This document shows, in pieces, positions 53,974-59,986 of a DNA stretch of 64,000 bases (its first letter is position 1; every line of letters begins with the position of its first letter). This stretch comes from Coniferiporia sulphurascens (Eukaryota; Basidiomycota; Agaricomycetes; Hymenochaetales; Hymenochaetaceae): positions 4,898,001 to 4,962,000 of the forward strand of contig NBBA01000001.1 in the NCBI GenBank assembly GCA_002794785.1, written 5' to 3'. The position numbers were made by a program, and so were the translations under genes. The notes below the pieces were generated by a model. That model did no database searches. It was given only the letters and a program-made list of their open reading frames with translations, and had not been told where the DNA came from.

Positions 53974-53978
53974 GTTAG
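53974..53978. repeat. target-site duplication, left copy (GTTAG)
   Basis: The five bases GTTAG immediately precede the left LTR and recur directly after the right LTR at 59982-59986. This is the staggered-cut duplication made by the retroviral-type integrase. Confidence 0.85.
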
Positions 53979-54235
53979 TCTTAAAATCTACACACGTTGT
54001 GGTAGACGATGAGGTGCAGTGGTGAAGTTCAGGCAAGGTGGGTTATCAGCGTAAACCGATGTATTTCTAGGGCGAGACCAGCTCCCCTTATATACACGTT
54101 CCGTGGGCTAGTACTACTATAACTAACTAGCTCTTATATCATATGGTGTTATCATTGTGTTATCATTCACTTAGTAAGGTGGTTGTTCATATGACCATGT
54201 ACTATATTTATATTGTTCGTTATATTTATTTAATA
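53979..54235 (-). repeat. copia LTR, 3' copy in element orientation
   Basis: 257 bp, reading tcttaaaatc at its left border and tttatttaata at its right border on the plus strand. It matches the copy at 59725-59981 except for 11 transitions. Confidence 0.92.
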
Positions 54236-54252
54236 CTCCCCTTCAAACTTTT
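54236..54252 (-). other. polypurine tract of copia element
   Basis: On the minus strand the bases just inside the 3' LTR read AAAAGTTTGAAGGGGAG, a purine-rich tract placed where plus-strand DNA synthesis is primed in LTR elements. Confidence 0.7.
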
Positions 54253-54791
54253 ACTAGGCGGAGTAGACTTGTAAAATGTTTGATTAATTCGATCGTTAGC
54301 GCTTTCGTCATAATATCAGCCTTTTGCTGTCCAGTTGGAATATATGAAACTGATATGGTTTCATTTTCAATATAATCTTGTAAAAAATCTTTTCGTATAT
54401 CTATGTGTTTTGTTCGTTGCCTATATTTTTGTTCTGTTGAATTTACTATAGTTATGGCTGCTTGATTGTTGCATAATATTTTCGTAGGTGTATCCAAGGT
54501 CTGCAGTACCTCTTCAACCAGTCTTCGTAGCCATATAGCTTCTTTTACTCCATGAGTTAAAGCTTGTAATTCCGCTTCGCATACTGATAATGACACTAAT
54601 TCTTGTTTTTTACTTGACCATGATGTCGTTGCGTTTCCTATTTGGAATATATATCCAGATATTGCTTTATGGCCTTCTTGTGTCATTCCGTCGGCATCGG
54701 TATATCCAATTAACTCGATTGGTTCTTTTCCTCCGAGTATTAACCAATAGTCGTTTGTTCCTTTCAAATATTTGAAACAGTGTTTTACTGC

Positions 54792-54796
54792 ATTAT
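54792..54796. repeat. target-site duplication of nested solo LTR, left (ATTAT)
   Basis: ATTAT precedes the solo LTR and is repeated at 55357-55361. Only one copy is needed to restore the host element's frame. Confidence 0.8.
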
Positions 54797-55356
54797 TGTT
54801 AAGCTCAACGGTTTACGCGGTGATCGATGTCGGGGCTTCCTGATCGTCGGGACTGATGGTACGGCAATGGGGCTTCCTAGATGTCGTAAGTCGAGGGTGA
54901 TCGTCGGTGGGGCTTCCTGATCGACGATGTGGACACGGTAGGCTTCTATAGCGAGTCGGGTTACGACAAAGCGACTAATGGCCAAGTGGCACACAGTAGA
55001 CTGGTGGTAGCAGATAATGGGCTTGTATGAACAAAGAGCACAAGCTTAGGGCTTGTGCTACTGAAGTTACATGCTTATATGCTACTCTATGTGTTTGTTA
55101 CTGTAGCGACTTGGTTAGGTATGTTTACCAGCCTATGGAAGGGCATGGAAACACAAGGAAGGCCTTGGTAATACAAGTACGGTGATCAGTAAGCAAAGCA
55201 CATCATGATGATGCGATAAGGTGTCATCATGGCGTCTTATGGTGTGGGGTAAATAAGGATGAGTAAGACAGAGAAATGGGGGAGTTGCGCTGACTGATGA
55301 TGATGAAGAGGAAGTGAGTCAGCGCAAAATAGGGAAAGTAAAGGAAAATTGTAACA
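54797..55356. mobile_element. nested solo LTR inserted in copia RT-RNase H
   Basis: A 560-bp insertion starting TGTTA and ending TAACA, flanked by the 5-bp duplication ATTAT. This is the structure of a solo LTR left after recombination between the two LTRs of another retrotransposon. It splits the copia coding sequence between IEHYN and AVKHCFKYLKG. Removing it with one duplicated copy restores the frame exactly. It contains three copies of ggggcttcct at 54832, 54869 and 54909. The superfamily (Ty3 or copia) cannot be told from the LTR alone, and its GC content differs from the host element. Confidence 0.85.
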
Positions 55357-55361
55357 ATTAT
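55357..55361. repeat. target-site duplication of nested solo LTR, right (ATTAT)
   Basis: Second copy of ATTAT, directly after the TAACA end of the solo LTR. Confidence 0.8.
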
Positions 55362-58300
55362 AGTGTTCAATACTAGGTTTATTTAAATGCCTAGCAAATT
55401 GACCTGTTGCGAATGATATGTCAGGTCTCGTACAATCTGCTGCATATCGTAATGCTCCAACCATGTTCATATATGGTATTTGATTCATGAAGTTTAATTC
55501 TTCATTAGTTGGGTTTTCAAGTGATTTTAACACTTGACCAGGTGTCATTGGTGTTCGTACCATTGCAGCGTCTTTTAATTTATATTTTTCTATGATATTA
55601 TCAATATAATGTTTTTGTCTTAGTTTGATTATTCTTTCTTCTCGGTTTCTTTCAATTTCAATACCGAGTAACCAATGTATGTCGTTTCCGTCAGTGAATT
55701 TTACATGTTTTCCAATTTCGTCTTTAAAGGCTTTTATTATTAATAAATTTAAGCCACATATAGTTATGTCGTCAACATGTATGAATAGTATTAGGATTGT
55801 TTTTCCTTTTACTTTTCTTAGGAATACTGCATTATCTTGGACTGCTCGTGTTAGTCCTATTCCTATTAATATTTCTGATAATTTTTTATACCATCGTCTC
55901 CCTGCTTGTTTTAATCCATATAAGGCTTTGTTTAATTTTAAAACTTGTCCAGGTTTTATTTCGATTAAATTTCCTGGAGGTGCTTTTATATATATATTTT
56001 CGTTTTTATCTAGTTCACCATATAAGTAAGCTGATTTTATATCGATTTGGTGAATCTCGTAATTGTTTGTTGCACTCCAACTTAATATAGTTCTTACTGT
56101 GGCTAATCGTGCCACTGGAGCGAATGTGTCATTTGAATAGTAGTCTATGCCTTCTTTCTGGGCAAATCCTTGAACTACTAGTCTTGCTTTGTAATGTTCT
56201 ATTTCTCCATTTGCCAATCTTTTTGTTTTATAAACAAATCTTGTTCCGATTATATTTGCTTCTTTTGGTGGATCAATGATTTTCCACGTAGATCTTTCGA
56301 TTAACGTTTTTATTTCTTCTTTCATTGCCGATATCCACTGATTTGCGTCAATTCTATTGATCGCTTGTTGATATGAATTAGGATCGCCTATTAATTCCGT
56401 ATTGAATTGATTAAATTCCGTAAGATAAGCGACTGTATTTTGTTCATCAAAGTTTAGACCTAATGATCGTTTTGTTGGTTTAATAGTTCTTATTGGTCTT
56501 TCATTTGTTAATTCTTTTATTTGCTCGTTTTGTTTTTCTGTTATATTCTCCCCTTCAATTTTAGATGGTGGAGAATCTAAAAATTGTAGATTTCGTTCTA
56601 CTGTAATTTTTCTGTTATGATAGGTTCTATGACCTTTACTTTCTTTGTCGAATCCTAGCCATTGTGCATATTTTCCTTTTGGTTGTAATTTATTAACGTC
56701 TTCTTGTCGTATAATGCAATATTGACCGAATTCTTTTAGATCATCGATGTTATAATTTTCGTTATATCATTTAAAATATGGTGTTTTAAAATCAATAGCG
56801 CTCTTTGGCGTTCTATTGTAAACGTAAGTACTGTACTTTACAGCTTCTCCCCATAGACTGGGTGGTAATTTTGCTTGTAACAGATTTACTCGTGTATTAT
56901 TTAAAATTGTTTGATGTGATCGTTCTGCTACTCCATTTTGTTGTGGCGTATCGTGAACAGTCAGCTTTCGTATTGTTCCATGTTTTTCTAAATATTCAGT
57001 GAATTGTTTACTTAAAAACACTGTATCGTTGTCACTTTGTAGTATTTTTATTTTTATATTAAATTGTGTATTGAGCATAGTAGCCCAAGTCGTATAAGCA
57101 TTTAAGCCTTCGTCTTTTGTTTTTAATAAAATCATTTTTATCCATCTTGTAGCATCGTCTACCAGTGTTAGAAGATATTTATATCCTCCTATAGCATGTG
57201 TGGATGCTGGACCCCATATGTCCATATGTATATGATCGCCAAATTTTTCGGCTAAATTTGAAATACATAATTTTGGGATTTGCATTCTTTTTATATTTGC
57301 TTCTATGCAGATTGTGCATTGAGTTTCGTCGTAATTTGATATTTTATTATTTGTAATTTGATCTTCTTTTAATAATCATTTTATGTAAGCATAACTTATA
57401 TGCCCGAGTTTTTTGTGAAGTTCAAATAATGTTACATTTTTTGTAGCCGCTTGTACATCATTGTTAAATATACTATACAATCCATTTTTATTTAAGATTA
57501 TTCCGCATAAAGATCCATTAGGATACTTTATTGTGCATTTGTTTTCTTTATAAATAAATTTGTAACTGTCTTGACATAGAAGTCCTTGAGAGACTAATGT
57601 CATATTCATTTTAGGATTGTAGTATACGTTTGATAATATTATGACACTTACCGAGTGTCCGTCGGGGATGTAAAGCTTAAGATCCCCTACTATGTTCGCC
57701 ATAAACGTTGTTTTATTTGCGGCCGTTATCGTGATTGCATCGGTTTTGTAAGTATTTCGTAATCGATTTAGGTATGGTGTTAGATGTATCGTTGCACCAG
57801 TATCAATTATATCCATTGAGGAATAAATATTGTTAGCAAATTTTTCTGTTGTTATAGCGTTAATGCTTATGTTTAAATTGTTGTCATCCACGTCTTCCAT
57901 GGCACTATCGTAATTTCCGATTTTGTCAAGGAAGTCGTTATACAAATATATTGGGAATTCTCCCATGTCGAAATCGTTGTCATCGATTTCGGTTATGAAG
58001 GCGCCAATTTCGCCTTGGCCAATTATGGCACTTAACTCGATTCAAGAGCTCGATGCTATGTTTGTTGCTGCTGCTGATGCTGCGGTATGTTTAGCCTGGG
58101 CCACACTTGCCCCAGTCGTTGTCGGTGCCGCTGACGCACCCGTTTCCTTCCCTTTTCCTTTGTCATCGTTCGCGTCCTCTTTTTTCTTCTGAGCTGCCTT
58201 CGTCCATTCCGTTTTTGGCACCCAGCAGTCTCGACTAAAGTGCCCTAGTTTGTTACAATTATAGCACTTAATAATGTGTGATTGTTGGTTAGGGGAATAT

Positions 58301-59709
58301 CCCCCTCATCCTCGTCCTCGTATGTATCCGCCACGGCCCCTATAGCCGCGACCTCGTGGTTGTACTCCGCGGCTGTTACCGCGTCTGTGGCCCCTAAAAT
58401 AGGGGTGGTTCCGCTCGTCCTTGGGCAGGTGGTTAGCCGCCGCTCCTGTCCTCTGGTGATTTTTACGCCACCCCTCAAAGGCGTTTCTCAATGCCGTTAG
58501 TAGGAATTGAGGGGTTAGTTCAATTTCATCTTTGTCTGGATTCGTTTCGTTGATTGTTTTAATATATAACTCTCTCTGCGTGAGTACGTATTGATATTGT
58601 TCGGGCGTTGCCCGCATAATAGCCGATATATATGTCGACTCTGAAACTTTTACCCCTTGGGCTATGAGTTCCTCGTATTTATTGCTGAGGTTATCGAGTG
58701 TTCCATCGAAATGGCTGACATGACCTCTGATATCAAAAAGGGCAGCCTCATTAAAGCCCTTTGTAATTGTTGTCTGGACGTTATATTGTCCGTCAAGCGC
58801 TTTGAGTAGCGCTGGAATATCTTTGTTAAAATTAAGATAATAAGCCAATATTTTGTCGGGCATAGTGCGCATAATGCCATTATATAAAGCGCTTGATATA
58901 CCAGCCTCTCCAGTTCCTGGGGAGTTAGTGAGCAAGTTACCGTAACCTGCACTTTCGATGGCGCTGCGGACTCTGTAATTCCAGAGTTTATAGTTTCGGT
59001 GCCCGTCGAGTTTCTCAATTCCATTGAAGAATTTCTGGAGTTCCGCGAGTTTAGTTGCCATACTCGGTTCATCTTCCTCGGTATCGTTAGCGTCTGAATC
59101 GTCAGGATCAGATGGTTCTGATGGCTCACGTGATGGGTTATTTTTGGATTCTTCGGAGTTTTCTTCTTCATTATCTTTTTTATCGTCGTCTTCTTTCTTA
59201 TTGCTTTCTTCTTCTGGCTTAATATAAGGGTTATCAATTTTAAATTGAGCTTTTTCATTTGGATCTGATATGCCCAAATACATACTTATTCAATATCCTA
59301 TTTCGGATGATTTTCCTTGATCTGATATTCCTAAATCTTTAGCGTGATTCGTTAGTTCCATTTTATAATCAGTTCTTATTTTTAATTTTTCGTCTTTGGT
59401 AGAGTTATCATACCTGTTTATTTGGTCTTGTATTTGTTGTTCCGTTCCGTTAATAGGTATTTGTCTTAGGTTACATTGAAGTATTAGGTCAACTAACCTT
59501 TTGCTATCTTTAGCTTTTTGAATTTTTTCTTCGAGTTCTTCTATAGTAGATGACTGTGTATACATTATTTTTAGTTCGTTAGCTATTATTCGTAATTCTG
59601 ATAATTTTTGCAAACGTGTTTGCTCACAAGTGTTTGGTTTCTGTCTGTCAGACATAGTTTCATTATTTGAGGATTTATAAATTCGTTAATCGTTTCGTTA
59701 GTTGTAGAG

Positions 59710-59724
59710 TCAAGGCTCATAACC
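59710..59724 (-). other. primer binding site of copia element
   Basis: Immediately inside the 5' LTR the minus strand reads GGTTATGAGCCTTGA. GGTTATGAGCC is complementary to the anticodon stem-loop of initiator tRNA-Met (GGCTCATAACC), not to a tRNA 3' end, suggesting half-tRNA priming as known for Drosophila copia. Confidence 0.6.
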
Positions 59725-59981
59725 TCTTAAAATCTATGCACGTTGTGGTAGACAATGAGGTGCAGTGGTGAAGTTCAGGCAAGGTGGGTTATCAGCGTAA
59801 ACCGATGTATTTCTAGGGCGAGACCAGCTCCCCTTATATACATGTTCCGTGGGCTAGTACTACTATAACTAACTAGCTCTTATATCGTATGGCGTTATCA
59901 TTGCATTATCGTTCACTTAGTAAGGTGGTTGTTCATATGACCATGTACTATATTTATATCATTCGTTATATTTATTTAATA
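59725..59981 (-). repeat. copia LTR, 5' copy in element orientation
   Basis: 257 bp, the pair of the LTR at 53979-54235. Transcription of the element would start in this copy and run toward lower coordinates. Confidence 0.92.
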
Positions 59982-59986
59982 GTTAG
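59982..59986. repeat. target-site duplication, right copy (GTTAG)
   Basis: GTTAG directly follows the right LTR and matches 53974-53978. Confidence 0.85.

Follow-up and report, generated by a model that had tools for sequence, protein, structure and literature searches.

The locus and its long terminal repeats

Here we describe a retrotransposon in a 64,000-nucleotide stretch of the Coniferiporia sulphurascens genome (contig NBBA01000001.1, positions 4,898,001 to 4,962,000; hereafter the window, in whose numbering coordinates are given), whose two 257-bp long terminal repeats (LTRs) differ from each other at CpG sites only. The element lies on the minus strand, and the frames between its LTRs follow the copia order: gag-like, Pol_BBD, integrase and RVT_2. 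With its integrase before RVT_2, flanking LTRs and a short target-site duplication, it is a Ty1/copia LTR retrotransposon, which supports the copia identity given in a preliminary description of this DNA. The features are:

53974..53978, no strand: left 5-bp target-site duplication GTTAG, read from the sequence
53979..54235, minus strand: left LTR (257-nt direct repeat), the 3' LTR of the element, with 8 CpG remaining
53991..54215, no strand: left-LTR positions of the 8 CpG dinucleotides that differ in the LTR-LTR comparison
54243..54767, minus strand: last pol frame, at the expected place of RNase H, without a Pfam match at E 0.01
54797..55356, no strand: nested 560-bp solo-LTR-like sequence of another family, with ends TGTTA...TAACA and a 5-bp duplication ATTAT at 54792-54796 and 55357-55361
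55237..56325, minus strand: copia-type reverse transcriptase frame (PF07727 RVT_2, E 1.6e-65), extending into the nested solo LTR
56767..57285, minus strand: integrase core frame (PF00665, E 2.6e-12)
57376..57966, minus strand: Pol beta-barrel domain frame (Pol_BBD, PF22936, E 1.5e-10)
58306..59283, minus strand: gag-like open frame of 325 amino acids (PF14223 Retrotran_gag_2, E 0.0013, under the curated Pfam cut-off)
59725..59981, minus strand: right LTR (257-nt direct repeat), the 5' LTR of the element, with 9 CpG remaining
59982..59986, no strand: right 5-bp target-site duplication GTTAG, read from the sequence

A homologue search with the gag-like frame gave 0 of 1,724 candidates at E 0.001. 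LTRs usually end in TG...CA; in the coding sense, those of the window element (53979-54235, 59725-59981) end in TA...GA. For a neighbouring dihydrouridine synthase frame the best named hits come from Phellopilus nigrolimitatus (64%) and Fomitiporia mediterranea (66%), so that by this one protein the host resembles Hymenochaetales.

Comparison of the two LTRs reproduced exactly the earlier count of 11 differing bases in eight dinucleotides, all of them in the states CG, TG or CA, and likewise confirmed that no difference lies outside these dinucleotides and that six CpGs are intact in both copies. In the left LTR the differing dinucleotides begin at 53991, 54007, 54097, 54140, 54147, 54158, 54164 and 54214, with their right-LTR partners at +5746, and they comprise five single changes (CG versus TG or CA) and three double changes (TG versus CA). 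When C:G transitions are counted and 32 CpG and 66 other C:G bases are assumed per LTR, the placement of eight out of eight events at CpG has a probability of about 1e-4 under equal rates and of 0.22 under a 10-fold CpG excess. A neutral clock whose CpG excess is of the usual size, at most 10-fold, is therefore permitted by the window pair alone, which cannot separate ordinary from extreme CpG decay, and for this reason the wider family was examined.

CpG excess across the copia family

Searching the genome (39.35 Mb in 31 contigs) for a 30-base LTR core, three mismatches being allowed at most, returned 325 occurrences, 172 on one strand and 153 on the other. Of 40 element regions retrieved, 38 gave two full LTRs, while L036 and L043 lacked them and were excluded; eight further loci (L001-L008, with L001 being the window's own left LTR) came from the single-LTR search. 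The 40 elements are a non-random sample: 31 were taken, among the matches listed, from LTR-core matches in which each of the two cores differed from that of the window by one mismatch, and the remaining nine from the best internal matches. Elements were divided by their internal CpG count into weakly hit (at least 200, n = 21) and strongly hit copies (n = 18), the window element being assigned to the latter by rule (208 internal CpGs, or 183 without the 25 of the nested LTR). As observations on the family itself, duplications of 4-6 bases abut the LTR ends in 36 of 39 copies, in some only with shifted ends, and extra LTR pieces, some in opposite orientation, lie near complete LTRs at L020, L029, L030 and L003, which suggests nested or clustered insertions.

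In the 38 non-window LTR pairs, 122 CpG dinucleotides differ (106 single, 16 double), and all other differences amount to five in CpA, two in CpC, two transversions and one 11-base gap. With the window included, 39 pairs thus hold 130 differing CpG dinucleotides and nine other substitutions, and 149 out of 156 C:G transitions fall in CpG. The wider family therefore bears out the proposed CpG excess: instead of a similar per-site transition rate at non-CpG cytosines, we found 149 transitions in 1,086 CpG bases and 7 in 2,968 other C:G bases, a rate ratio of 58 (range 28-145, derived solely from the Poisson range of the seven non-CpG events). After masking the 30-base search core the ratio was 51 with a lower bound of 25, and the eight pairs chosen via internal matches showed 50 CpG changes and one other. 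CpA is not the main target, given five CpA-context differences compared with 130 CpG dinucleotides.

With the counted bases, a 10-fold CpG excess is rejected at 2e-9 and a 20-fold excess at 0.001, a 30-fold excess only at 0.046; with the rougher 32:66 base counts the corresponding values are 1.6e-6, 0.018 and 0.21. The neutral clock that the window pair had permitted is thus very improbable over the 39 pairs. Gene conversion between LTRs was also considered as a cause of the few non-CpG changes and was rejected, because it would erase CpG differences too. Furthermore, the more internal CpG an element has lost, the more its two LTRs differ (Spearman 0.87 over 39 elements).

Strand, context and end states of the hits

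Both strands are hit about equally, with 71 TG and 78 CA among the 149 LTR hits, and every one of the 16 LTR CpG positions reads TG in some and CA in other differing pairs (eight and nine at 54214). The preceding base is without effect (ACG 63/550, CCG 7/75, GCG 18/175, TCG 23/248; p 0.79 over the four contexts), so the comparison of TpCpG with other CpG contexts proposed in the preliminary description revealed no preference for TCG, and TpCpG targeting was rejected. Adjacent hits in the LTR pairs share a strand at chance level (47/92, 45.5 expected) when strands are shuffled within each of the 16 true sites, with a like outcome for coarser position bins. The same holds for the private hits of weakly hit copies (63/135, 66.7 expected) and, in strongly hit copies, for states held by at most two of them (145/274, 140.5 expected). 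Nor did we find clustering of hits or a per-element strand bias among the family elements, and a strand-processive deaminase was rejected on these grounds.

End states were read at 227 positions where CpG is kept in at least 80% of the 21 weakly hit copies. There the 18 strongly hit copies, among them the window element, gave CG 2,739, TG 560, CA 680, CT 73, TA 4 and a few others. Because the states stop at TG or CA (1,240 cells) with only four TA, the process ends once the CpG is lost.

These patterns also bear on a technical explanation, namely that long-read base calling misreads methylated CpG and that the differences are assembly artefacts. Such an error could account for the almost exclusive involvement of CpG sites, but a context-tied systematic error would repeat one state, whereas TG and CA both occur at every one of the 16 CpG positions of the LTR. 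The near absence of TA and the many hits common to both LTRs in the same state speak against it as well, and we regard an artefact as hardly credible.

A second repeat family and the neighbouring DNA

The 560-bp family of the nested solo-LTR-like sequence is abundant, with 947 candidate places in the genome, 40 of which were scored. We compared 20 copies, the nested one and the next 19 best-scoring after the window's, and found CpG differences at 2,616 of 6,068 pairwise sites, with 3,417 other substitutions against 90,326 identical positions; the closest pair differs by 13 CpG changes and one other. The second family thus agrees with the copia family in its per-site CpG bias. The window DNA flanking the copia element is not CpG-depleted, with observed/expected CpG ratios of 1.07 on one side and 1.09 on the other, in flanks that were not screened for other repeats.

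CpG methyltransferase genes

The genome carries candidate CpG methyltransferase genes, judged by sequence similarity: the PF00145 profile matches at two places only, a DNMT5-like gene (L009) and a DNMT1-like gene (L010), both read in pieces, in an exon-wise search that may miss genes. L009 matches chain 7r76_A across the methyltransferase part (E 2e-93), a structure deposited under the title 'DNA repair protein Rad8' and which we take to be Cryptococcus DNMT5, and the pieces at L010 match DNMT1 (E 1e-10). A genome search for the DNMT1-RFD family gave no match, a result that is uninformative since the control also matched nowhere. In the sections cited, a review assigns CpG methylation in Basidiomycota to the pair of DNMT1-RFD and DNMT5 and describes cryo-EM structures of DNMT5 with its Rad8-like SNF2 part (PMC13297926).

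Timing of the hits relative to insertion

The preliminary description had argued that sites reading TG in one LTR and CA in the other were mutated independently on opposite strands. In the window element, sites mutated in both LTRs are three opposite and two in the same state, about the independent post-insertion expectation and as expected if nearly all hits post-date insertion. In the family, same-state sites prevail: the 18 strongly hit copies have 56 same and 16 opposite (p 2e-6), the 21 weakly hit ones 13 and 2. Part of the family's hits were therefore probably inherited via reverse transcription from an already hit template, so that hit copies could still act as templates for insertions; gene conversion between LTRs or a site-specific strand preference could add to the same-state excess.

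Strongly hit (116:6) and weakly hit copies (30:3) show no detectable difference in how many CpG changes their LTRs have for each other change (Fisher p 0.40, with the six and three non-CpG changes counted by hand), in a test that is weak because it includes just nine non-CpG events. Random placement by strand and position, together with the lack of a detectable change in ratio, fits a slow clock of methyl-CpG deamination. Of the earlier proposal of an active process soon after insertion, the CpG-directed C-to-T change and the independent hits on opposite strands stand; the need for an active process akin to repeat-induced point mutation (RIP) and for a burst following insertion is not supported by these observations.

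With a RIP-like mutator, a DNMT1-class enzyme would both methylate and deaminate, and CpG in repeats would be hit in discrete bursts, for example during sexual reproduction. The high CpG excess is in its favour, as are the involvement of two repeat families beside window DNA that is not CpG-depleted, the slight excess of CpA among the remaining transitions (five of seven) and the CpG-biased hypermutation that is called RIP or RIP-like in the cited parts of the work on Ganoderma, Tricholoma and Rhizoctonia. Against it stand the lack of strand runs, clustering and per-element strand bias, the near absence of TA, the like ratio in strongly and weakly hit copies on those few events and the apparent ability of already hit copies to yield new insertions. 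On balance, we consider such bursts a possible but rather unlikely source of the pattern.

Discussion

Overall, chronic deamination of 5-methyl-CpG in a methylated copia element after its insertion is probably the best explanation of the data. The absence of strand runs, clustering, strand bias and TpCpG preference, together with the halt at TG or CA, favours it, and sequence marks expected of such decay were observed, namely C-to-T changes nearly confined to CpG, equal strands and an end at TG or CA. The methyltransferase gene pieces, the link between internal CpG loss and LTR-pair difference, the second repeat family and the undepleted neighbouring DNA count in its favour too. The copia element would be methylated at CpG after insertion, like other repeats, by DNMT1-like or DNMT5-like CpG methyltransferases, and each 5-methylcytosine would then gain an independent, raised chance of becoming T. 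Deamination on one strand would turn CG into TG and on the other strand into CA, and a mutated site, no longer a CpG, would then be left alone, so that two LTRs identical at the start would diverge almost only at CpG. Methylation of these CpGs is inferred, as is a spontaneous, non-enzymatic course of deamination, and the DNMT1-like and DNMT5-like enzymes presumably act on the copia element; the purity and context-independence of the changes fit methyl-CpG decay, short of proof.

Several observations weigh against passive decay as the whole account. For methylated CpG in mammals a roughly 10-fold excess is usually quoted, and the ratio of at least 28 found here exceeds it, which leaves room for an active step. 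Among the non-CpG transitions, five fall on 993 CpA cytosines and two on the 1,975 others (p 0.046), which hints at a weak activity on CpA. When singleton substitutions are counted across the entire element, CpG does not dominate (0.137 per site at CpG, 0.10 at CpA); we judged this spectrum uninformative, attributing its lack of CpG dominance to the loss of recurrent CpG hits from the count and to the inclusion of divergence that predates the insertions. Transitions affect 15.4% of cells at CpG in strongly hit copies and 1.0-2.4% at other cytosines, an excess below that of the LTR pairs, and the 73 CT cells at the 227 CpG positions are mostly at a few of them. Finally, one-sided CpG hits fall unevenly on the LTRs of the 39 pairs, 68 on the left (the coding 3' LTR) and 43 on the right (p 0.022), an imbalance that is unexplained.

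Beyond the burst-like mutator considered above, a distinct CpG counterpart of RIP, as opposed to passive decay, can be envisaged in this fungus. It would be directed at repeats and almost restricted to CpG, where it would exceed its rate at other C:G sites at least about 25-fold; it would lack a TpCpG preference and would operate via DNMT1/DNMT5 and not via RID. We consider it improbable and still prefer chronic deamination.

The two LTRs of an element start out identical when it inserts, so their later differences record the spectrum of post-insertion mutation cleanly. Since this spectrum is almost purely CpG here, dating LTRs in such genomes by every difference would make insertions look too old. 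Moreover, the copia family allows slow methyl-CpG decay and burst-like RIP to be tested directly against each other in an Agaricomycete. A literature search for repeat-induced point mutation in the Phellinus group found, in the library searched and with those terms, no report on this group, the one paper returned being on Coccidioides mitochondria.

Comparison with known systems

CpG-biased mutation is already known in Agaricomycetes, and the copia family is a very clean new example. The sections cited report RIP or RIP-like mutation with CpG bias in Ganoderma sinense (PMC4457147), Tricholoma matsutake (PMC6980582) and Rhizoctonia solani AG8 (PMC4014442), with C-to-T change at CpG within repeats as the common feature; the T. 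matsutake paper, in the part cited, refers to Horns 2012 as denying RIP in Agaricomycotina. For G. sinense, the cited text describes bisulfite data with nearly all 5-methylcytosine in CpG and more in transposable elements than in genes, and CpA as the second target (PMC4457147), whereas the copia LTR pairs are almost purely CpG. They also differ from R. solani AG8, where, in the passages cited, CpG accounts for about 40% among C-T single-nucleotide polymorphisms and genes are mutated too (PMC4014442).

Outside the Agaricomycetes, the RIP-like TpCpG hypermutation of Microbotryum (Pucciniomycotina) resembles the present case, according to the cited sections, in its CpG-containing target, the involvement of both strands and the expansion of transposons regardless, but its TpCpG rule (PMC5381629) is not shared by the copia family, which shows no TCG preference. 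Neurospora-type RIP, with its CpA target and RID (PMC4352252 and PMC5381629, in the parts cited), likewise consists of C-to-T changes in repeats; here, CpA is not the main target and the TA end state is nearly absent. Amselem 2015 linked a CpG-only signature in transposable elements of basidiomycetes to a Masc2-like DNMT1 and methylcytosine deamination, as its cited sections state (PMC4352252), and the copia family has this signature in common with them, although the basidiomycetes treated there belong to other lineages (Microbotryum, Melampsora, Puccinia) and a DNMT5-like gene is also present in our genome.

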